Shown here: in pieces, positions 6,659 through 21,474 of the stretch
Layout of the letters: every line of letters starts with the position of its first letter
Position numbering within the stretch: the stretch's first letter is position 1
Origin: Acidimicrobiales bacterium
GTDB taxonomy: Bacteria; Actinomycetota; Acidimicrobiia; Acidimicrobiales; GCA-2861595
Reading direction: 5' to 3'
DNA length: 38,992 bases
NCBI GenBank assembly: GCA_030448025.1
Contig: JAUJNQ010000004.1
Coordinates: 338,712 to 377,703, forward strand
Position numbers and translations under genes: made by a program
The notes under the pieces: generated by a model
Database searches by the model: none
The model's input: the letters and a program-made list of their open reading frames with translations, nothing else
Told to the model about the DNA's origin: nothing

Positions 6659-7492
6659 CTATTCCTGGTAGTACTGGCCATACCACTCCACGAAGCGGCC
6701 GATGCCGACCTCGATCGGCGTGGCCGGCGAGAACTCGACGTCACGAACCAGATCGTCGACATCGGCGTAGGTGGCGGTCACGTCGCCGGGTTGCATGGGC
6801 AGGAGGTTGAGCTCGGCGCGCCGGCCGAGGGCTTGCTCGAGCGCCCCGATGAACGCCATGAGCTCGACCGGGCTGTTGTTGCCGATGTTGTAGAGCCGGT
6901 AGGGGGCGGTGCTGGTGGCGGGATCGGGCGAATCACCGGACCACGACGGGTTCGGGGAGGCCACGTTGTCCAGCACCCGCACCACACCCTCGACGATGTC
7001 GTCGATGTAGGTGAAGTCGCGGCGCATCCTGCCCTCGTTGAACACGTCGATGGGCCGGCCCTCGAGGATGGCCTTGGTGAAGAGGAACAGGGCCATGTCG
7101 GGCCTTCCCCAGGGTCCGTACACGGTGAAGAACCGCAATCCGGTCGTCGGGATGGCGTAGAGGTGGCTGTAGGTGTGGGCCATCAGCTCGGTGGCCTTCT
7201 TGGTGGCGGCATAGAGGCTCACGGGGTGGTCCACGTTGTGGTGCACCGAGAAGGGCATGGTCGTGTTGGCGCCGTAGACCGAGCTGGAGGAGGCGTAGAC
7301 AAGGTGGTCGGTGCCCCGGTGCCGGCAGGCTTCGAGAACGTTGAGCGTGCCAACGATGTTCGAGTCCACGTAGGCGTGGGGTTCTTCAACGAGTAGCGCA
7401 CGCCGGCCTGGGCGGCCAGGTGCACCACCCGGTCGGGGGAACGATCGAACGCAGCGTCGACGGTCGCTCGGTCGATGAGGTCGCCCGAATTT
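6659..7492 (-). pseudogene. Nucleotide-sugar epimerase (UDP-glucuronate 4-epimerase-like), 5'-truncated and frameshifted
   Basis: This is an extended short-chain dehydrogenase/reductase. From about 7384 leftward one frame reads [30 protein letters not shown], the catalytic YAATKKATE (YxxxK), [38 protein letters not shown] and ends [14 protein letters not shown]. The preceding part ([35 protein letters not shown]) is in another frame: one C is missing from the Asn-Pro-His codons near 7385. The first roughly 60 residues, with the GxxGxxG NAD site, are replaced by unrelated sequence from about 7493. Two further fragments lie at 15150-15741 and 21193-21474. As it stands it cannot bind NAD and is presumably dead. 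Confidence 0.85.
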
Positions 7493-8877: not shown

Positions 8878-11521
<2,644 letters not shown>

Positions 11522-11522
<1 letters not shown>

Positions 11523-11785
11523 AGGGCCGTGGCTGGCGGTGGCGTGGCGGCCAGCTCGGCCTCGGCGTGGGCGGGGCGTGCGGCACACCACGGCCACCTG
11601 CTCCTCGCGCAGGGCGCCGGAGTGGAAGGCCGAGGCGGTGTGGGGCAGCTCGGGCAGCTGGCGGGCCATGGCCACCAGCCGGTGGGCCCGACCGCGTGAC
11701 ACGCCGCACTTTCAAGCCACCCATTGCTCGGACGAGTGGATGCCCGCGCCCTCGAAGGCTTCCGTGTCGAGCTGGGCGTCATCGG
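11522..11785 (-). pseudogene. Fragment of a DUF222/HNH (13E12-type) gene
   Basis: Read leftward, this matches residues about 46-130 of the intact gene at 16444-17685: TEAFEGAGIHSSEQWVA, KCGVSRGRAHRLVAMARQLP, ALREEQVAVVCR and HATASHGPL. There is an in-frame TGA where the intact copy has Trp (WVAW), and a frameshift after VVCR. The HNH nuclease part is absent. It abuts the toxin gene of duplication copy A. Confidence 0.85.
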
Positions 11786-12207: not shown

Positions 12208-12438
12208 CTACCGCGCCTCGACCCCCTCGAGGGCTTCGAGCGCGCCCGCCACATCGGAGACGTCGATCTTCACGCCCAGCCGGCGCGTCCGTTGCTCGAA
12301 CCGCTGAACGTCTCTGCGAGGGAGCAAGCCGCGGCGGATCAGCTCGTTCACTGCCCCGCTCACACCAAGTCCGCTCTCTCGGCGCAACTCCTCGATCGCC
12401 TTGGCCGTGTCATCGTCGAATTCGATGGTCGTGCGCAT
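12208..12438 (-). CDS. vapB: VapB-type antitoxin (copy A, first module)
   Basis: This is a 76-aa antitoxin partner of the adjacent VapC. The N-terminus MRTTIEFDDDTAKAIEELRR and GVSGAVNELIRRGL form a ribbon-helix-helix DNA-binding part. The tail (RRLGVKIDVSDVAGALEALE) would bind the toxin. A minus-strand TAACTT hexamer ends 7 bases before the ATG, so the message is probably leaderless. The equivalent gene in copy B lost 101 bp, including the start of the toxin-binding tail. Confidence 0.87.
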   Translation of the reverse strand: MRTTIEFDDDTAKAIEELRRESGLGVSGAVNELIRRGLLPRRDVQRFEQRTRRLGVKIDVSDVAGALEALEGVEAR

Positions 12439-12572
12439 GCGCCCAAGTTACCACGTGTGTGCTAGCCTTATCGCATGTCCGTGCGACGGCCCTGGGCGCT
12501 GTCGTGCTGCAGCCTGTGATAGCTGCCGAGGTCCCGAGGTCGCTGACGGCGGCGCCTCGGAACCCGATATGT

Positions 12573-12806
12573 ATGCTGGTGACCATCAGACGTATACAGC
12601 TTCACCTCGACGAGGACCTCGATGAGGCATTGGCCATTCAGGCCGCCGAGCTGGGCTTGCCCAAGGCGGCCCTCATTCGCCGGTACCTGGCCGAGCACGT
12701 CTCGGTGCGGTCCCGTGGTGACGACCCCAGCGCGGCCCTGATCGGCGTCTATCAGGGGACCCCCGACGAAAGCGGCGACATCGACGAGACCGTTTACCGG
12801 CCGTGA
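12573..12806 (+). CDS. Antitoxin of a VapBC-type pair (copy A, second module)
   Basis: This product is up to 77 aa. The core IRRIQLHLDEDLDEALAIQA and GLPKAALIRRYLAEHV is a ribbon-helix-helix. The acidic tail (DDPSAALIGVYQGTPDESGD) is typical for toxin binding. The start is unclear: ATG at 12573, GTG at 12579, or, by alignment to the vapB at 6306-6569 whose promoter-start region is similar (TGTATGCT, then CC-ATG-CGC-CGG), the homologous codon here is ATC. It overlaps the downstream toxin start by 4 bases. It is transcribed away from the first vapB, with a shared intergenic region of 134 bp. Confidence 0.82.
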   Translation: MLVTIRRIQLHLDEDLDEALAIQAAELGLPKAALIRRYLAEHVSVRSRGDDPSAALIGVYQGTPDESGDIDETVYRP

Positions 12807-13195
12807 GGCTGGCAGACACCAGCTTCTGGGTGGCGCTGGCGGCCGCAAGAGACCGGCACCACGGCGATGCTGTCCTGCTCTGGACCGCACAACGCGAGCC
12901 GGTCGTGGTCACCAATCATGTGGCAGGCGAGACGTGGACCTACCTTCGCCGGCGGGCAGGCCATGGTCCCGCCATGGCCGCGCTGGCCGTGTTCCGCTCA
13001 GCGAGGGTCCGCCTGGTGCACGTCGAGGGGGCGGTGGAGAGCGAAGCGTGGAGTTGGCTGGCTCGCCATGACGAGCGCGAGTACTCCTTCGTCGACGCCA
13101 CGAGCTTCGCCCTCATGCGACGCCTGCGCGTCCGAGAGGCCCTCGCCTTCGACGGCGACTTCTCGGCCGCCGGCTACCTCGAACTACGCCCCTGA
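12803..13195 (+). CDS. vapC: PIN-domain VapC-type toxin (copy A, second module)
   Basis: This is a 130-aa PIN protein starting at the GTG of a GTGA overlap with its antitoxin. Catalytic acids fit the family: D5 (RLADTSFWVALAA), E in NHVAGETWTYLRR, D in SFVDATSFALMRR, and the final pair in ALAFDGDFSAAGY. It is full-length and presumed an RNase. The gene is repeated with an identical predicted protein at 18846-19238. Confidence 0.9.
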   Translation: MRLADTSFWVALAAARDRHHGDAVLLWTAQREPVVVTNHVAGETWTYLRRRAGHGPAMAALAVFRSARVRLVHVEGAVESEAWSWLARHDEREYSFVDATSFALMRRLRVREALAFDGDFSAAGYLELRP

Positions 13196-13235
13196 AGCGG
13201 ATCCGCCAGGAAGCGGCCATGCTGTCATGACATGG

Positions 13236-13580
13236 TCAAAGGCCGAGCAGAAGGCGCAACCGCTCCTCAACGGCGGTGAGCACCGAAGTCGACACCGAGC
13301 CCCATGCTCCTTCGATCAGCCGCTCAACGGAGACCGAACGCAAGTCCTCGCACTTCACGAAGCTCTGCATGCGCACGCCGCCATCGGGGGGCTCGATGGC
13401 GACATGGGTTGGGATACCCCGCTGACGAGTCGTCATTGGCACCACCATGACCAGTCCGGACAGACCACGGTTGAAGCGGTCGACGGAGATGACGAGGGCC
13501 GGCCGCCTCCCCGCTTGCTCGTGCCCCCGGGTGGGGCTGAAGTCTACCAGCCAGACCTCGCCGCGAGCCGGGTTTGCCAA
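13236..13580 (-). CDS. mazF: MazF/PemK-family endoribonuclease toxin (copy A)
   Basis: This is a 114-aa protein of the MazF fold, a ribosome-independent mRNA interferase. Motifs are RGEVWLVDFSPTRGHEQAGR, RPALVISVDRFN, VVPMTTRQRGIPTHVAI and SFVKCEDLRSVSVERL. The start is a TTG at 13580 immediately after the antitoxin TAA, so coupling is likely. It converges with the vapC ending at 13195. An identical protein is encoded at 19279-19623. Confidence 0.9.
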   Translation of the reverse strand: MANPARGEVWLVDFSPTRGHEQAGRRPALVISVDRFNRGLSGLVMVVPMTTRQRGIPTHVAIEPPDGGVRMQSFVKCEDLRSVSVERLIEGAWGSVSTSVLTAVEERLRLLLGL

Positions 13581-13829
13581 TTACGCCTCGCCCAGGTCGT
13601 CACCCAGGGTGCCCTCGAGGTCCGCTCGCTCCTGGAGCTCCTCGGCCCATCCCTCGGGGTCGGCTCGGAGCGAGGCGTAGGCGGCATCCAGCTCTGTGAA
13701 GAACCGAGCACGCCGGTAGGAGTCGACCGCCCGCTCCAGCACGCGGTGCATTGGCTCGCCCGTGGCCGCCGCCAGTTCCCTCAGCGTGACTCTGGTCTCT
13801 TCGCTGATCCGTACTGTCGTGCTGCCCAC
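13581..13829 (-). CDS. Ribbon-helix-helix antitoxin of the MazF module (copy A)
   Basis: This is an 82-aa product from a GTG at 13829 with GGAGGG seven bases upstream. MGSTTVRISEETRVTLRELA and EPMHRVLERAVDSYRRARFF make a ribbon-helix-helix. The acidic tail (WAEELQERADLEGTLGDDLG) would fill the MazF RNA-binding groove. It lies directly upstream of mazF. The inverted repeat at 13846-13863 is a candidate operator. Confidence 0.85.
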   Translation of the reverse strand: MGSTTVRISEETRVTLRELAAATGEPMHRVLERAVDSYRRARFFTELDAAYASLRADPEGWAEELQERADLEGTLGDDLGEA

Positions 13830-13845
13830 AGCCAGTCCCTCCGGT

Positions 13846-13863
13846 GTAGACGTTGCAGTCTAC
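13846..13863. promoter_or_regulatory. Inverted repeat upstream of the MazF module
   Basis: GTAGAC-GTTGCA-GTCTAC is a perfect 6-bp inverted repeat 17 bases upstream of the antitoxin start. The minus-strand hexamer TAGACT inside it could be the -10. This is the expected position of an autorepression site. It is repeated at 19889-19906. Confidence 0.55.
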
Positions 13864-13930
13864 TACTTGGGCTACAGCGGATCACGCCGCAGCACGGTCG
13901 CAGAGCCGCACCAATCCGCCACGAAGCGGC

Positions 13931-14446
13931 CATGTGTGGCACTACTTCGAGTGGGCGTGGAGCTTCGTCGGACATCCCGATCGGGGCTTGGCCTCGGAGG
14001 AGTTCCGCCGCCTCTGGCGCTCCTGGGGGGATGGCACCCAATTCGGCCGGTGGGACTCCTGGTCGCCGTACGTCGTGTCGCTGCGGGCCTGGACCCGCTG
14101 CGGTCTGTTCGGGCCGCTGGTGGCCAGCACCGACGATGAAGCCGACTTCCTCGCCGGCATCGCACTCCACGCCGGCTTCGTGCGGGCCAACCTCGAGCTC
14201 AACGTCGGCGGCAACCACTTTCTCGAGAACCTGAAGGCCGAACCCACCGGACTGCGACCGGCCATCGAGGCCATGCGGACGTGGCTGGGAGCGGTGCTCC
14301 TGCCCGACGGCGAGGTGCCCCTGTTCAACGACTGCACCGCCCGGTTGGAGCGGGCGGCGAAGAACGCCGACGAGGTGGTGGTCACCGCCTCCCACGACGG
14401 CGCCGCCCTCAGCCTGCTCACCACGGTTGCCCCACCGGGCGGCTGA
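13931..14446 (+). pseudogene. Heparinase II/III-like gene fragment (copy A)
   Basis: The frame reads WHYFEWAWSFVG, FRRLWRSWGDGTQFGRWDSW, LAGIALHAGFVRANLELNVG, GNHFLENLKA, then jumps to AIEAMRTWLGAVLLPDGEVP and LFNDC. These are successive blocks of the N-terminal domain of heparinase II/III-family proteins, which act on acidic polysaccharides. Roughly 70 residues between NLKA and AIEAMRTWLG appear deleted in frame, and the catalytic C-terminal domain is missing, so this is a remnant. It is repeated with an identical translation in copy B. Such genes commonly sit in exopolysaccharide loci, matching the epimerase fragments nearby. Confidence 0.7.
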
Positions 14447-14497
14447 TGCCGGTCGTTACCCAAGCACCAACCTTCCCCGCCTGCTGCCCTACCTAGT

Positions 14498-14511
14498 ACC
14501 CTACGTAGGGT
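14498..14511. promoter_or_regulatory. Palindromic operator overlapping the vapB start
   Basis: ACCCTACGTAGGGT is a perfect 14-bp palindrome that ends within the GTG start of the next vapB. A TACCCT hexamer (14497-14502) seven bases before the GTG is a good -10, so transcription would begin at the start codon and repressor binding would block it. It is repeated at 20541-20554. Confidence 0.65.
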
Positions 14512-14737
14512 GCGAAAGACCAGCGTCTATCTGAGCGAGGTGCAGGCGGAGCGCTTGGCCCGCCTGTCGAAGCAACAACGGCGTCCCCAGGCGGAGATCA
14601 TCCGCGACGCCATCGCCGCCTACGCTGCCCCACGCCCGGAGGAACGACGCTTCAGCCTTGACGGCGTGGTCGTGGGCGACGGAGCCACGATCGCCGACGT
14701 CGACGAGGACGAGTTGCTTCGCGGCTTCGGAGAGTGA
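14510..14737 (+). CDS. vapB: VapB-type antitoxin (copy A, third module)
   Basis: This is a 75-aa product from a GTG inside the palindrome. MRKTSVYLSEVQAERLARLS and QRRPQAEIIRDAIAAYA are a ribbon-helix-helix. The tail FSLDGVVVGDGATIADVDED is the toxin-binding part. It overlaps the toxin gene by 4 bases (GTGA). A leaderless transcript is inferred from the -10 position. Confidence 0.88.
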   Translation: MRKTSVYLSEVQAERLARLSKQQRRPQAEIIRDAIAAYAAPRPEERRFSLDGVVVGDGATIADVDEDELLRGFGE

Positions 14738-15159
14738 CCCTCGTCGTCGACGCTGCTCCGCTCATCGCCCTGGCCGACAGGGCGGATCCCCGGCGCGAGG
14801 CAGTCCAGGCGCTCTTCTACCAAGAGGACGGCGAGCTGATCGTTCCCGCCCAGGTCACGGCCGAGGTCGACTACTTGCTTGGGTCTCGGCACGGCTCCGT
14901 CGCTCGACGGGCCTTCCTCGACGACCTGTCGTCCGGGCGATTCGTGGTGCCGTGCCTGCAGCAAGAGGACTATGCCGTGGTTGTGGACCTGGAGCGGTCC
15001 TACCACGATCTCGACCTCGGCCTCGCCGACTGCTCGATCGTGGTTCTGGCCCACCGCTACCGCACCACGCGCGTGGCGACGTTCGACCAGCGCCACTTCG
15101 GCGCCGTGAGGCCCCTCCAAGGCGGCATCTTCCAGCTCCTACCGGCGCCGCCTTGGTGA
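14734..15159 (+). CDS. vapC: VapC-type PIN toxin (copy A, third module), 3' end at a recombination junction
   Basis: This is a 141-aa PIN protein: [15 protein letters not shown] (D6), [28 protein letters not shown] and [14 protein letters not shown] give the catalytic acids. The last residues (PAPPW) and stop codon lie at or across the join to the epimerase fragment. GCCTTGGTGA, which ends the gene, is also the antisense start of the homologous epimerase stretch. The original C-terminus may therefore have been slightly different, though the PIN core is complete. An identical copy lies at 20777-21202. Confidence 0.88.
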
Positions 15160-15741
15160 AGAGGAACAGGGCCATGTCGGGCCTTCCCCAGGGTCCGTAC
15201 ACGGTGAAGAACCGCAATCCGGTCGTCGGGATGGCGTACAGGTGGCTGTAGGTGTGGGCCAACAGCTCGGTGGCCTTCTTGGTGGCGGCGTAGAGGCTGA
15301 CGGGGTGGTCCACGTTGTGGTGCACCGAGAAGGGCATGGTCGTGTTGGCGCCGTAGACCGAGCTGGAGGAGGCGTAGACAAGGTGGTCGGTGCCCCGGTG
15401 CCGGCAGGCTTCGAGAACGTTGAGCGTGCCAACGATGTTCGAGTCCACGTAGGCGCGGGGTTCTTCAACGAGTAGCGCACGCCGGCCTGGGCGGCCAGGT
15501 GCACCACCCGGTCGGGGGAACGATCGAACGCAGCGTCGACGGTCGCTCGGTCGATGAGGTCGCCTCGAACGAGCCCGAAGCCGCCCCGCGGCTCCAGCCA
15601 GGCGAGCCGAGCCTCCTTCAAGGTGGGGTCGTAGTAGTCGTTGACGTTGTCCAGACCCACGACCTCGTCGCCCCGGTCCAGCAACGCCGCGCTCACATGG
15701 GCGCCGATGAACCCCGCAGCGCCAGTGACGAGGACCTTCAC
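15150..15741 (-). pseudogene. Nucleotide-sugar epimerase N-terminal fragment (copy A)
   Basis: From a GTG at 15741 this encodes the NAD-binding start missing from the 6.7-7.5 kb copy ([40 protein letters not shown]), then [20 protein letters not shown] and [13 protein letters not shown]. Here the frame shifts, as in the first copy, and continues [19 protein letters not shown] to FLFTKA. It stops at the junction with vapC (15150), losing the C-terminal substrate domain. Both copies lack one C at the same place, though a neighbouring base differs (CAC versus CGC after repair). It is not functional. Confidence 0.88.
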
Positions 15742-16443: not shown

Positions 16444-17685
16444 TCAGGTGACTGATGTCGGCTCGTTGAAGTGGAGCCAGCGGGGGTCGAGGCGCTCACC
16501 GCTGGGGTGAGACCAGGCCCCGGTGAAGGTGAGATCGCCGGGCGGGGCCGGACGCCCGGACCCGGTGAGTCGCCTGCCCGCGGAATCGGTGAAGACCATC
16601 CCGTCCGGGTCGTCGGCGTTTCCGGTGATATCCAACCGTCCTAGGTGATGGAGGCGATGATGCACGGAGCACAGAGCGGCGAGGTTGGCGGTGTCGGTGG
16701 CCCCGCCGTCCTCCCAGTGGATGATGTGGTGGACCTGCAGCCAGCGGCTGCGCTCACAGCCCGGGACTCGACAAGCCCCGTCGCGTTGTTCGATCACCAG
16801 GCGGGTGCGCTCGGGGACGATGCGCTGTGTTCGCCCCACGCTCAGGGCCACCCCGCACACCTCGCGCACCGGGCGGACCCGCCCGTCGCAGCCCAGCAGG
16901 CGCCGGAGCGCATCGGGCAGGGGCGGGCCCAGGTGGAGGTTGGCCACCGGGCCGTGCTCGCCGTCGCGCAGGTGGACCACGACCAGATGGCGATCCGAGG
17001 AGGGGCGGGCAGCGGCGGCGCCGAGGGAGCGGTCGGCCATGGCCAGGAGTGCATCGGCCCAGGTGGGTTGGTCCTTCACCCCATCGTCGATCAGACCCCG
17101 GCGGGCGACGTCGAGGGCCCGCTCGATGAGAGCTCCCTCGTCGGGAGGCAGCAGGGCGGAGAGCCGCCACGCCCCCTCCTCGGTGGTACCGAAGTCCACC
17201 CGTCGCGCCTCGGTCTCTTCGGGCTGACCGGCTTCCTTCTCCTCCTCCTCGTCCGGCTCGGGGGGCCAGGCGTAGCGGCGCAGGGTGCGGGTCAACTGCG
17301 ACACCGTGGCGTGGCGGGCCAGGGTGGCGGCCTCGGCGTCGGCATAGGTGGGGACGTAGCGACACAGCACCGCCACCTGGTCCTCGCACAGCTCGCCCGC
17401 CTCGAAGGCCAATTCGGTGCTCGGCAGTTCGGACAGGCGCCGGGCCATGGCCACAAGCCGGCGGGCCCGACCTGGTGACACGCCGCACTTCCAGGCCACC
17501 CACTGCTCGGGCGAGTGGATGCCGGCGCCTGCGAAAGCCTCGGTCTCGAGCGCCTTCCCCACCAGGGACACCAGCCGGGCGGTGGTGGCATTCAGCGCTC
17601 CGCACACCTGGGCCAGCTCATCTTCGATGTCAGCCGCCGATGCCACACGCTCCTCGCAGTGCTGCACTTCGGCCACCATCGCCAT
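16444..17685 (-). CDS. DUF222/HNH endonuclease domain protein (13E12 repeat family)
   Basis: This is an intact 413-aa protein. The N-terminal DUF222 part includes ALETEAFAGAGIHSPEQWVA, WKCGVSPGRARRLVAMARRL and LARHATVSQLTRTLRR. The C-terminal HNH motif is complete: CRVPGCERSRWLQVHHIIHW, then DGGATDTANLAALCSVHHRL. The family is multicopy in actinobacteria (for example the 13E12 repeats of mycobacteria); its function is uncertain, with a nuclease or mobile-element role suspected. The ATG at 17685 has TAGGAT ending 7 bases upstream, so a leaderless message is likely, and a LexA-type box lies just upstream. It sits exactly between the two copies of the duplicated TA segment. Confidence 0.92.
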   Translation of the reverse strand: MAMVAEVQHCEERVASAADIEDELAQVCGALNATTARLVSLVGKALETEAFAGAGIHSPEQWVAWKCGVSPGRARRLVAMARRLSELPSTELAFEAGELCEDQVAVLCRYVPTYADAEAATLARHATVSQLTRTLRRYAWPPEPDEEEEKEAGQPEETEARRVDFGTTEEGAWRLSALLPPDEGALIERALDVARRGLIDDGVKDQPTWADALLAMADRSLGAAAARPSSDRHLVVVHLRDGEHGPVANLHLGPPLPDALRRLLGCDGRVRPVREVCGVALSVGRTQRIVPERTRLVIEQRDGACRVPGCERSRWLQVHHIIHWEDGGATDTANLAALCSVHHRLHHLGRLDITGNADDPDGMVFTDSAGRRLTGSGRPAPPGDLTFTGAWSHPSGERLDPRWLHFNEPTSVT

Positions 17686-17698
17686 CGTCCCATCCTAG

Positions 17699-17712
17699 CG
17701 AACGCCTGTTCG
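17699..17712. promoter_or_regulatory. LexA (SOS) box upstream of the DUF222/HNH gene
   Basis: CGAAC-GCCT-GTTCG is a perfect inverted repeat matching the Gram-positive/actinobacterial LexA consensus CGAAC-N4-GTTCG. It lies 2 bases upstream of the -10 hexamer TAGGAT (minus strand, 17697-17692) and 14 bases before the start codon, an ideal position for repression. Confidence 0.8.
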
Positions 17713-17808
17713 ATGAAGGTGGATACCGCTCACTCAAGACCGCTCGTATTCCCCCGTCGAGCGGAGCGCCTACGACAGTTCCCACTCCGCTCTCACGAGC
17801 TCATCGGG

Positions 17809-18351: not shown

Positions 18352-18481
18352 CTACCGCGCCTCGACCCCCTCGAGGGCGGATCAGCTCGTTCACTGCCCC
18401 GCTCACACCAAGTCCGCTCTCTCGGCGCAACTCCTCGATCGCCTTGGCCGTGTCATCGTCGAATTCGATGGTCGTGCGCAT
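18341..18481 (-). pseudogene. VapB antitoxin truncated by a 101-bp deletion (copy B)
   Basis: This is identical to the copy A vapB through GVSGAVNELIR, then a 101-bp deletion with GGC microhomology joins it out of frame to the 3' end. The product would be 46 aa ending RGGRGAVDAR, with the stop inside the chimeric VapC ORF. The DNA-binding half remains and the toxin-binding tail is gone. Confidence 0.85.
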
Positions 18482-18615
18482 GCGCCCAAGTTACCACGTG
18501 TGTGCTAGCCTTATCGCATGTCCGTGCGACGGCCCTGGGCGCTGTCGTGCTGCAGCCTGTGATAGCTGCCGAGGTCCCGAGGTCGCTGACGGCGGCGCCT
18601 CGGAACCCGATATGT

Positions 18616-18849
18616 ATGCTGGTGACCATCAGACGTATACAGCTTCACCTCGACGAGGACCTCGATGAGGCATTGGCCATTCAGGCCGCCGAGCTGGGCT
18701 TGCCCAAGGCGGCCCTCATTCGCCGGTACCTGGCCGAGCACGTCTCGGTGCGGTCCCGTGGTGACGACCCCAGCGCGGCCCTGATCGGCGTCTATCAGGG
18801 GACCCCCGACGAAAGCGGCGACATCGACGAGACCGTTTACCGGCCGTGA
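18616..18849 (+). CDS. Antitoxin of a VapBC-type pair (copy B, second module)
   Basis: The predicted protein is identical to that at 12573-12806 (ribbon-helix-helix IRRIQLHLDEDLDEALAIQA plus acidic tail). Start ambiguity is the same (ATG 18616, GTG 18622, or the homologous ATC). It overlaps its toxin by 4 bases. Because both copies make the same antitoxin and toxin, loss of one pair would be buffered by the other. Confidence 0.82.
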   Translation: MLVTIRRIQLHLDEDLDEALAIQAAELGLPKAALIRRYLAEHVSVRSRGDDPSAALIGVYQGTPDESGDIDETVYRP

Positions 18850-19238
18850 GGCTGGCAGACACCAGCTTCTGGGTGGCGCTGGCGGCCGCAAGAGACCGGC
18901 ACCACGGCGATGCTGTCCTGCTCTGGACCGCACAACGCGAGCCGGTCGTGGTCACCAATCATGTGGCAGGCGAGACGTGGACCTACCTTCGCCGGCGGGC
19001 AGGCCATGGTCCCGCCATGGCCGCGCTGGCCGTGTTCCGCTCAGCGAGGGTCCGCCTGGTGCACGTCGAGGGGGCGGTGGAGAGCGAAGCGTGGAGTTGG
19101 CTGGCTCGCCATGACGAGCGCGAGTACTCCTTCGTCGACGCCACGAGCTTCGCCCTCATGCGACGCCTGCGCGTCCGAGAGGCCCTCGCCTTCGACGGCG
19201 ACTTCTCGGCCGCCGGCTACCTCGAACTACGCCCCTGA
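18846..19238 (+). CDS. vapC: PIN-domain VapC-type toxin (copy B, second module)
   Basis: This is a 130-aa protein identical in translation to the copy at 12803-13195, with all PIN acids retained (RLADTSFWVALAA, SFVDATSFALMRR, ALAFDGDFSAAGY). GTGA overlap with the antitoxin. Functional by inspection. Confidence 0.9.
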   Translation: MRLADTSFWVALAAARDRHHGDAVLLWTAQREPVVVTNHVAGETWTYLRRRAGHGPAMAALAVFRSARVRLVHVEGAVESEAWSWLARHDEREYSFVDATSFALMRRLRVREALAFDGDFSAAGYLELRP

Positions 19239-19278
19239 AGCGGATCCGCCAGGAAGCGGCCATGCTGTCATGACATGG

Positions 19279-19623
19279 TCAAAGGCCGAGCAGAAGGCGC
19301 AACCGCTCCTCAACGGCGGTGAGCACCGAAGTCGACACCGAGCCCCATGCTCCTTCGATCAGCCGCTCAACGGAGACCGAACGCAAGTCCTCGCACTTCA
19401 CGAAGCTCTGCATGCGCACGCCGCCATCGGGGGGCTCGATGGCGACATGGGTTGGGATACCCCGCTGACGAGTCGTCATTGGCACCACCATGACCAGTCC
19501 GGACAGACCACGGTTGAAGCGGTCGACGGAGATGACGAGGGCCGGCCGCCTCCCCGCTTGCTCGTGCCCCCGGGTGGGGCTGAAGTCTACCAGCCAGACC
19601 TCGCCGCGAGCCGGGTTTGCCAA
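19279..19623 (-). CDS. mazF: MazF/PemK-family toxin (copy B)
   Basis: This is a 114-aa protein identical in translation to 13236-13580, including RGEVWLVDFSPTRGHEQAGR and VVPMTTRQRGIPTHVAI. TTG start directly after the antitoxin stop. It converges with the vapC ending at 19238, as in copy A. Confidence 0.9.
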   Translation of the reverse strand: MANPARGEVWLVDFSPTRGHEQAGRRPALVISVDRFNRGLSGLVMVVPMTTRQRGIPTHVAIEPPDGGVRMQSFVKCEDLRSVSVERLIEGAWGSVSTSVLTAVEERLRLLLGL

Positions 19624-19872
19624 TTACGCCTCGCCCAGGTCGTCACCCAGGGTGCCCTCGAGGTCCGCTCGCTCCTGGAGCTCCTCGGCCCATCCCTCGG
19701 GGTCGGCTCGGAGCGAGGCGTAGGCGGCATCCAGCTCTGTGAAGAACCGAGCACGCCGGTAGGAGTCGACCGCCCGCTCCAGCACGCGGTGCATTGGCTC
19801 GCCCGTGGCCGCCGCCAGTTCCCTCAGCGTGACTCTGGTCTCTTCGCTGATCCGTACTGTCGTGCTGCCCAC
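19624..19872 (-). CDS. Ribbon-helix-helix antitoxin of the MazF module (copy B)
   Basis: This is an 82-aa protein identical to 13581-13829, with the same GTG start, GGAGGG ribosome site and upstream inverted repeat (19889-19906). The two copies would repress each other's promoters as well as their own. Confidence 0.85.
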   Translation of the reverse strand: MGSTTVRISEETRVTLRELAAATGEPMHRVLERAVDSYRRARFFTELDAAYASLRADPEGWAEELQERADLEGTLGDDLGEA

Positions 19873-19888
19873 AGCCAGTCCCTCCGGT

Positions 19889-19906
19889 GTAGACGTTGCA
19901 GTCTAC
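19889..19906. promoter_or_regulatory. Inverted repeat upstream of the MazF module (copy B)
   Basis: GTAGAC-GTTGCA-GTCTAC, identical to the site at 13846-13863 and in the same position relative to the antitoxin start. Confidence 0.55.
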
Positions 19907-19973
19907 TACTTGGGCTACAGCGGATCACGCCGCAGCACGGTCGCAGAGCCGCACCAATCCGCCACGAAGCGGC

Positions 19974-20489
19974 CATGTGTGGCACTACTTCGAGTGGGCG
20001 TGGAGCTTCGTCGGACATCCCGATCGGGGCTTGGCCTCGGAGGAGTTCCGCCGCCTCTGGCGCTCCTGGGGGGATGGCACCCAATTCGGCCGGTGGGACT
20101 CCTGGTCGCCGTACGTCGTGTCGCTGCGGGCCTGGACCCGCTGCGGTCTGTTCGGGCCGCTGGTGGCCAGCACCGACGATGAAGCCGACTTCCTCGCCGG
20201 CATCGCACTCCACGCCGGCTTCGTGCGGGCCAACCTCGAGCTCAACGTCGGCGGCAACCACTTTCTCGAGAACCTGAAGGCCGAACCCACCGGACTGCGA
20301 CCGGCCATCGAGGCCATGCGGACGTGGCTGGGAGCGGTGCTCCTGCCCGACGGCGAGGTGCCCCTGTTCAACGACTGCACCGCCCGGTTGGAGCGGGCGG
20401 CGAAGAACGCCGACGAGGTGGTGGTCACCGCCTCCCACGACGGCGCCGCCCTCAGCCTGCTCACCACGGTTGCCCCACCGGGCGGCTGA
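19974..20489 (+). pseudogene. Heparinase II/III-like gene fragment (copy B)
   Basis: The translation is identical to the fragment at 13931-14446, including the internal join between GNHFLENLKA and AIEAMRTWLG. The shared deletion shows that the fragment was already broken before the segment was duplicated. Confidence 0.7.
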
Positions 20490-20540
20490 TGCCGGTCGTT
20501 ACCCAAGCACCAACCTTCCCCGCCTGCTGCCCTACCTAGT

Positions 20541-20554
20541 ACCCTACGTAGGGT
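20541..20554. promoter_or_regulatory. Palindromic operator overlapping the vapB start (copy B)
   Basis: ACCCTACGTAGGGT, identical to the site at 14498-14511, again ending in the GTG start codon with TACCCT as the putative -10. Confidence 0.65.
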
Positions 20555-20780
20555 GCGAAAGACCAGCGTCTATCTGAGCGAGGTGCAGGCGGAGCGCTTG
20601 GCCCGCCTGTCGAAGCAACAACGGCGTCCCCAGGCGGAGATCATCCGCGACGCCATCGCCGCCTACGCTGCCCCACGCCCGGAGGAACGACGCTTCAGCC
20701 TTGACGGCGTGGTCGTGGGCGACGGAGCCACGATCGCCGACGTCGACGAGGACGAGTTGCTTCGCGGCTTCGGAGAGTGA
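20553..20780 (+). CDS. vapB: VapB-type antitoxin (copy B, third module)
   Basis: This is a 75-aa protein identical to 14510-14737 (MRKTSVYLSEVQAERLARLS and FSLDGVVVGDGATIADVDED). GTG start within the palindrome and 4-base overlap with vapC, as in copy A. Confidence 0.88.
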   Translation: MRKTSVYLSEVQAERLARLSKQQRRPQAEIIRDAIAAYAAPRPEERRFSLDGVVVGDGATIADVDEDELLRGFGE

Positions 20781-21202
20781 CCCTCGTCGTCGACGCTGCT
20801 CCGCTCATCGCCCTGGCCGACAGGGCGGATCCCCGGCGCGAGGCAGTCCAGGCGCTCTTCTACCAAGAGGACGGCGAGCTGATCGTTCCCGCCCAGGTCA
20901 CGGCCGAGGTCGACTACTTGCTTGGGTCTCGGCACGGCTCCGTCGCTCGACGGGCCTTCCTCGACGACCTGTCGTCCGGGCGATTCGTGGTGCCGTGCCT
21001 GCAGCAAGAGGACTATGCCGTGGTTGTGGACCTGGAGCGGTCCTACCACGATCTCGACCTCGGCCTCGCCGACTGCTCGATCGTGGTTCTGGCCCACCGC
21101 TACCGCACCACGCGCGTGGCGACGTTCGACCAGCGCCACTTCGGCGCCGTGAGGCCCCTCCAAGGCGGCATCTTCCAGCTCCTACCGGCGCCGCCTTGGT
21201 GA
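20777..21202 (+). CDS. vapC: VapC-type PIN toxin (copy B, third module)
   Basis: This is a 141-aa protein identical to 14734-15159, including the C-terminal PAPPW created at the join to the epimerase sequence. The same junction in both copies shows the toxin-epimerase join predates the duplication. Confidence 0.88.
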
Positions 21203-21474
21203 AGAGGAACAGGGCCATGTCGGGCCTTCCCCAGGGTCCGTACACGGTGAAGAACCGCAATCCGGTCGTCGGGATGGCGTACAGGTGGCTGTAGGTGTGG
21301 GCCAACAGCTCGGTGGCCTTCTTGGTGGCGGCGTAGAGGCTGACGGGGTGGTCCACGTTGTGGTGCACCGAGAAGGACGTTGTCCAACCCCACGACCTCG
21401 TCGCCCCGGTCCAGCAACGCCGCGCTCACATGGGCGCCGATGAAACCCGCAGCGCCAGTGACCAGGACCTTCAC
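21193..21474 (-). pseudogene. Epimerase fragment with internal deletion (copy B)
   Basis: It starts like copy A ([20 protein letters not shown] to GLDNV), then a 310-bp deletion relative to copy A (15334-15643) joins it out of frame to the part encoding [20 protein letters not shown] and [20 protein letters not shown]. It retains the antisense join to vapC. It is clearly dead and a later decay stage than copy A. Confidence 0.87.

Follow-up and report, generated by a model that had tools for sequence, protein, structure and literature searches.

The window, by which we mean the whole stretch of 38,992 nucleotides that was analysed, encodes on its minus strand a protein of 413 amino acids (16444-17685) with matches to the Pfam families DUF222 (E = 4.7e-16; 59.4 bits, cut-off 24.4) and HNH (E = 2e-7; 31.5 bits, cut-off 21.4). 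The 5' end of this gene reads, on the minus strand, CGAACAGGCGTTCG - C - TAGGAT - GGGACG - ATG. CGAACAGGCGTTCG (17699-17712) is a LexA (SOS) box with perfect palindromic half-sites; the predicted -10 element TAGGAT (17692-17697) begins one base beyond it, and the ATG start codon (17683-17685), the predicted first codon of a leaderless mRNA, follows after another six nucleotides. The CGAAC-N4-GTTCG palindrome touches or overlaps the promoter of the gene. A TANNNT element with this spacing recurs in boxed DUF222 genes, as does the spacing to the start codon in relatives. The exact box and the six-base spacer had already been recognised in the first-pass annotation, whose gap of two bases between box and TAGGAT has to be corrected to one. 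When the whole window was scanned, this box was the single match to CGAACNNNNGTTCG without mismatches; matches with up to two mismatches were at background level (31 found vs 26 expected).

Throughout the 2.70-Mb assembly, exact CGAACNNNNGTTCG was found 19 times, compared with once for the reversed control pattern. Both lexA (HMM match at C9:433716; box at C9:433614-433627) and recA (HMM match at C4:724135; box at C4:723985-723998) carry an exact box upstream; the first-pass annotation had named this comparison as one on which its proposal could fail. Exact boxes were also found upstream of ruvC and of a PHP/PolIII-alpha gene (dnaE2-like), and six of the 19 are located at the 5' ends of DUF222 genes. 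The presence of one exact sequence at lexA, recA, ruvC, the dnaE2-like gene and six DUF222 genes identifies it as the LexA box of this organism. The regulon resembles the LexA/SOS regulon of Actinomycetota, in which CGAAC-N4-GTTCG is found at lexA, recA, ruvC and dnaE2-type genes, but differs from the usual one in the share of exact boxes that serve DUF222-HNH genes. It departs further in that exact boxes precede a LysM gene divergent from lexA and genes for an Eco57I-type methylase, an endonuclease VII-like protein and a SocA/Panacea-domain protein. The methylase and endonuclease VII-like genes (L009 and L013) begin directly after their boxes and are unusual SOS targets. A boxed intein-carrying gene and a boxed imuA'-like gene were named from their translations, without a family match.

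Inteins were observed at two of the SOS-linked loci. In recA (G000:C4:724135-726000; L053, L054), an intein-like insertion within a single frame of 774 amino acids splits the RecA profile into segments 1-198 and 193-262. The boxed gene L001, downstream of the box at G000:C4:369152, resembles the Rv2578c-type radical SAM protein and carries an intein (Pfam Intein_splicing, E = 1.9e-5). The genome thus holds two SOS-linked genes with inteins.

DUF222 gave 14 HMM matches in this genome, of which 11 represent full or near-full genes. All 11 have a LexA box with at most one mismatch: six are exact and the other five, all at near-full genes, have a single mismatch giving the half-site GTACG. For the phylum, 124 DUF222 genes taken from 57 genomes were searched at their 5' ends, up to 300 bp upstream of the domain. 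A box with no more than one mismatch was present at 85 of the 124 genes (69%, which is no census figure, since the sampling favours strong HMM matches), compared with 2/124 for the reversed pattern and 2.3% for dinucleotide shuffles, and at least one boxed DUF222 gene was found in 43 of the 57 genomes. Across the phylum, box positions cluster at roughly -70 to -120 bp relative to the start of the DUF222 domain. No near-match was found at 39 of the surveyed genes, and 14 of the 57 genomes (e.g. G011 and G017) had none at any sampled DUF222 gene; some of these unboxed lineages may rely on a different box or regulator. The box was also present at nine of nine DUF222 loci from the metagenome-assembled genomes Actinomycetes nzgw85, Actinobacteria YU_71_112 and Acidimicrobiales YX3bin29, four of which come from genomes within the survey; only the five YX3bin29 loci enlarge the count. 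The earlier suggestion that SOS control of the family is old and general draws support from these numbers.

The geometry downstream of the box is also recurrent. In 57 of the 85 boxed DUF222 genes, TANNNT precedes an in-frame ATG or GTG by 5-8 nt (6-7 in nearly all cases) with no intervening stop allowed, against 10.7% in a null of shuffled downstream regions. In nearly all 57, the box abuts or overlaps the -10 element or start region, an arrangement compatible with LexA acting by direct occlusion. One subgroup uses the right half-site itself as the -10 element (CGAACNNNNG-TACGAT), and in other boxed DUF222 genes the -10 element lies directly upstream of the box. The spacing suggests leaderless transcription. 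We conclude that 17692-17712 very probably represents a LexA operator set against the core promoter of the DUF222-HNH gene and places this gene under LexA control; LexA binding and induction by damage are predicted for it. Both the organism's SOS regulon and the phylum survey lend strong support to the combination of LexA/SOS control with a leaderless promoter, as originally proposed.

In the window protein, the HNH motif is intact (C305..C310..HH319-320..N334..C339..HH342-343), and R301, C305, C310 and H320 are invariant in an alignment of 50 members. Profile searches of the PDB matched the C-terminal domain to IscB (E = 6e-6) and McrA (E = 1.8e-5), HNH nucleases with which it has in common the metal-finger module and the paired Cys-x4-Cys / Cys-x2-HH positions. 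Neither the base-modification reader of McrA nor the RuvC and RNA-guide parts of IscB were found in the window protein; the NCBIfam IscB match was far below cut-off (22.8 vs 175 bits), and PHROGs and NCBIfam returned generic HNH matches only.

The N-terminal region gave a different relationship. When residues 1-165 were modelled with AlphaFold2 (pLDDT 90), the fold matched the DNA-binding domain found in Noc, ParB, Spo0J and KorB. These proteins filled the first 13 rows returned by VIA-align (Z = 10.3-7.0, ~100 residues), the next unrelated fold scoring 6.1, and the full-length model agreed with this ParB-type match of the isolated domain. Profile searches of the PDB with the N-terminal region likewise placed three ParB/Spo0J sequences first, at weak E-values of 0.028-0.077, the alignment falling on the L-x-x-L-P...G-E-L-S segment. 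Pfam HTH_ParB was matched in one of the 50 members (E = 0.11). What the window protein has in common with ParB, Noc and KorB is the predicted fold of residues 27-141 and the signature L-x-x-L-P...G-x-L/I-(S/T), a likeness that is weak by sequence and concerns a helical domain, of a kind that matches by chance more easily. Fold and profile together, neither conclusive alone, make a ParB-type DNA reader at the DUF222 N-terminus likely. Unlike in ParB, Noc and KorB, this putative reader is linked to a C-terminal HNH nuclease domain, and a ParB CTPase domain was not detected in a profile scan of DUF222 members. Fusions of ParB, CTPase and HNH domains have been surveyed, in an account from which DUF222 is absent (PMC12704722). 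The predicted activity of the DUF222-HNH protein is probably that of a site-directed nuclease; we infer both the nuclease activity and its DNA target.

Several of the DUF222 copies have the appearance of discrete units. The copies of one group (group A; C7:111658, C4:673749, C4:16969, C4:694382 and C7:305147, plus a piece at a contig end) are 83-95% identical at the DNA level over ~1.23 kb, with common edges and no similarity beyond them, and the shared unit takes in the LexA box. Hairpins at the 3' ends were considered as a general cassette feature and dropped, being present in only part of group A. Empty sites were found in relatives at two loci. At the truB-ribF junction (both genes named from translations, without a family scan), 81 bp separate the flanks in G002 and G003, compared with ~1.31 kb here; at L020, the corresponding distances are 57 and 37 bp in G002 and G003 compared with 1.94 kb here. 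These empty sites are compatible with losses as well as gains. No target-site duplication was seen; the intergenic flanks are too diverged to align. The window gene itself has two relatives in the genome (L025 and L027), to which its similarity starts at or near the box; its own empty site was sought in relatives and not found, the flanks not being conserved there. Searches for related loci started from divergent paralogues showed no conserved stretch, and those started from two paralogues returned nothing. Between DUF222 paralogues dN/dS was 0.20-0.46, indicating that the proteins are maintained.

A palindrome, CCTTGTGNCACAAGG or a near copy of it, is centred 28-30 bp before the LexA box at several loci within the genus (L019-L021, L023, L024, L077 and L122). 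Upstream of DUF222 genes it is a possible operator or nuclease target. In G000, CCTTGTGNCACAAGG seemed enriched (18 vs 2), but the cluster at L173 consists of coding repeats (NALWHKA in a repeat protein) and hence of false matches. At L173 and L174 (G000:C10:176800-178600 and 198800-200600), the copies lie ~135 bp apart; given this shared spacing, those at L174 presumably represent coding repeats as well. The palindrome decays at the order level, and only copies upstream of DUF222 genes count.

The window gene is situated between two copies of an island of ~3 kb. The left copy (12333-15341), which includes a PIN-domain gene, and the right copy (18376-21384) are 99.9% identical, indicating a recent duplication. 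A degenerate DUF222 fragment (11527-11772, minus strand; HMM match with an internal TGA), 79% identical to 17304-17551, is located beside the left copy. The first-pass annotation had proposed that the induced DUF222 gene could promote rearrangement of the flanking island. Nothing direct speaks for this: the gene stands outside the repeat, and only the old 79% fragment adjoins the left copy. Further repeats were observed in the window. A 420-bp repeat (98.6%) at 7071-7489 and 15150-15569, with a third, partial copy at 21193-21384, links the island to a distant site in the window, and overlapping short direct repeats at 8940-9198 apparently form a tandem array of ~21-bp units.

The following course of events is proposed. 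In the undamaged cell, LexA on the box would block the adjoining TAGGAT element and the start site. Upon damage, RecA filaments on the damaged DNA would bring about self-cleavage of LexA, the promoter would open, and a leaderless mRNA starting at or beside the ATG would be produced. Its product would be a DNA nuclease that reads its site by a ParB/Noc-like helix-turn-helix and cuts by a McrA/IscB-like HNH domain. The operator would move with the gene, as several paralogues look like small cassettes that begin shortly before the box and end near the stop codon. The operator, the promoter geometry, their conservation, the cassette edges and the two empty sites are visible at the level of sequence; how the cassette would move is presumed. 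In our view, the most likely role is that of a mobile gene whose HNH nuclease is timed to act upon DNA damage, at a probability of roughly 0.45.

Other explanations have to be weighed against this one. The box might be a chance palindrome and the gene outside LexA control, as the background level of near-matches in the window could be taken to hint; however, the 19-fold excess of exact boxes over the control genome-wide, the near-match at 11 of 11 full or near-full DUF222 genes of this organism and the clustering of box positions across the phylum make such a coincidence highly improbable. A second explanation accepts LexA control and holds that the DUF222-HNH proteins are ordinary host nucleases of SOS repair or recombination, amplified by duplication and not mobile. 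Membership in the same regulon as recA, ruvC and the dnaE2-like gene would be natural for such proteins, as would the purifying selection between paralogues, and a repair role has been proposed for 13E12 proteins (PMC4181829). However, synteny would be expected of a core repair gene, whereas the number of DUF222 matches per genome varies from none to 17 among relatives, broken copies and fragments are present, and sharp common edges and two empty sites were observed. We regard a pure host-repair function as possible but doubtful.

Alternatively, the damage-induced nucleases might kill the cell or destroy invading DNA, in the manner of abortive-infection or suicide systems. The alignment of the HNH domain with McrA-type restriction enzymes and the PIN and Panacea toxin/antitoxin-type genes near some copies are consistent with such a function. 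The HNH nuclease MSMEG_1275 of M. smegmatis, which may or may not be a DUF222 protein, degrades DNA and is lethal on overexpression, but lethality was seen in only one of five HNH genes overexpressed (PMC9416677). With as many as 17 matches per genome, lethality of every one would come at a high cost. Furthermore, no cognate immunity gene was seen, and four members gave no match in PADLOC, a library of known systems in which a defence role of another type would go unmatched. A suicide or defence role appears unlikely, and the damage-timed mobile nuclease gene is the reading that we prefer.

The regulatory part of this reading has a real precedent in mycobacteria, as the first-pass annotation had pointed out. 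The 13E12 genes of M. tuberculosis are under LexA control and have been noted for mobile-element characteristics (PMC5005354, citing Davis et al. 2002; see also PMC4181829), and five putative HNH endonucleases were induced RecA-dependently after mitomycin C (PMC8151990). The 13E12 repeats are hotspots of gene conversion, with frequent conversion between copies, and DUF222/13E12 genes rank with the most highly repeated and most frequently recombining loci of M. tuberculosis (PMC13061034). Like the window family, the 13E12/REP13E12 genes of that species (Rv0515, Rv1702c, Rv3074 and Rv3776) combine DUF222 with HNH, are multicopy and have members in the LexA regulon. The genes described here differ in that they belong to another lineage, have the box fused to a leaderless core promoter and form single-gene cassettes with empty sites in relatives. 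LexA control of 13E12 in M. tuberculosis is thus already known. Its spread through the phylum, with the count that documents it, is an addition, judged against openly licensed papers; so are the fixed geometry of the promoter, the ParB-like domain and, in an uncultured lineage, the empty sites. As far as could be found among such papers, the ParB-like domain and apparently mobile ~1.2-kb cassettes that include the LexA box are new, and the literature on DUF222 gave no mechanism.

That the family has kept an SOS operator throughout the phylum, in many cases joined to a leaderless promoter, is an argument for damage timing as part of its role. As a tentative generalisation, DUF222-HNH genes may be phylum-wide, SOS-timed mobile cassettes of ~1.2 kb, each supplying its own leaderless promoter under LexA control and encoding a nuclease fitted with a ParB-type reader. 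In one subgroup, the site read might be CCTTGTGNCACAAGG, which is situated at the 5' cassette edge ~30 bp ahead of the box, and cutting by the nuclease might drive copying of the gene in the course of recombinational repair. A ParB-like reader joined to an HNH cutter offers a concrete, testable activity for the DUF222 family, and the empty sites offer a testable mode of spread for its cassettes.
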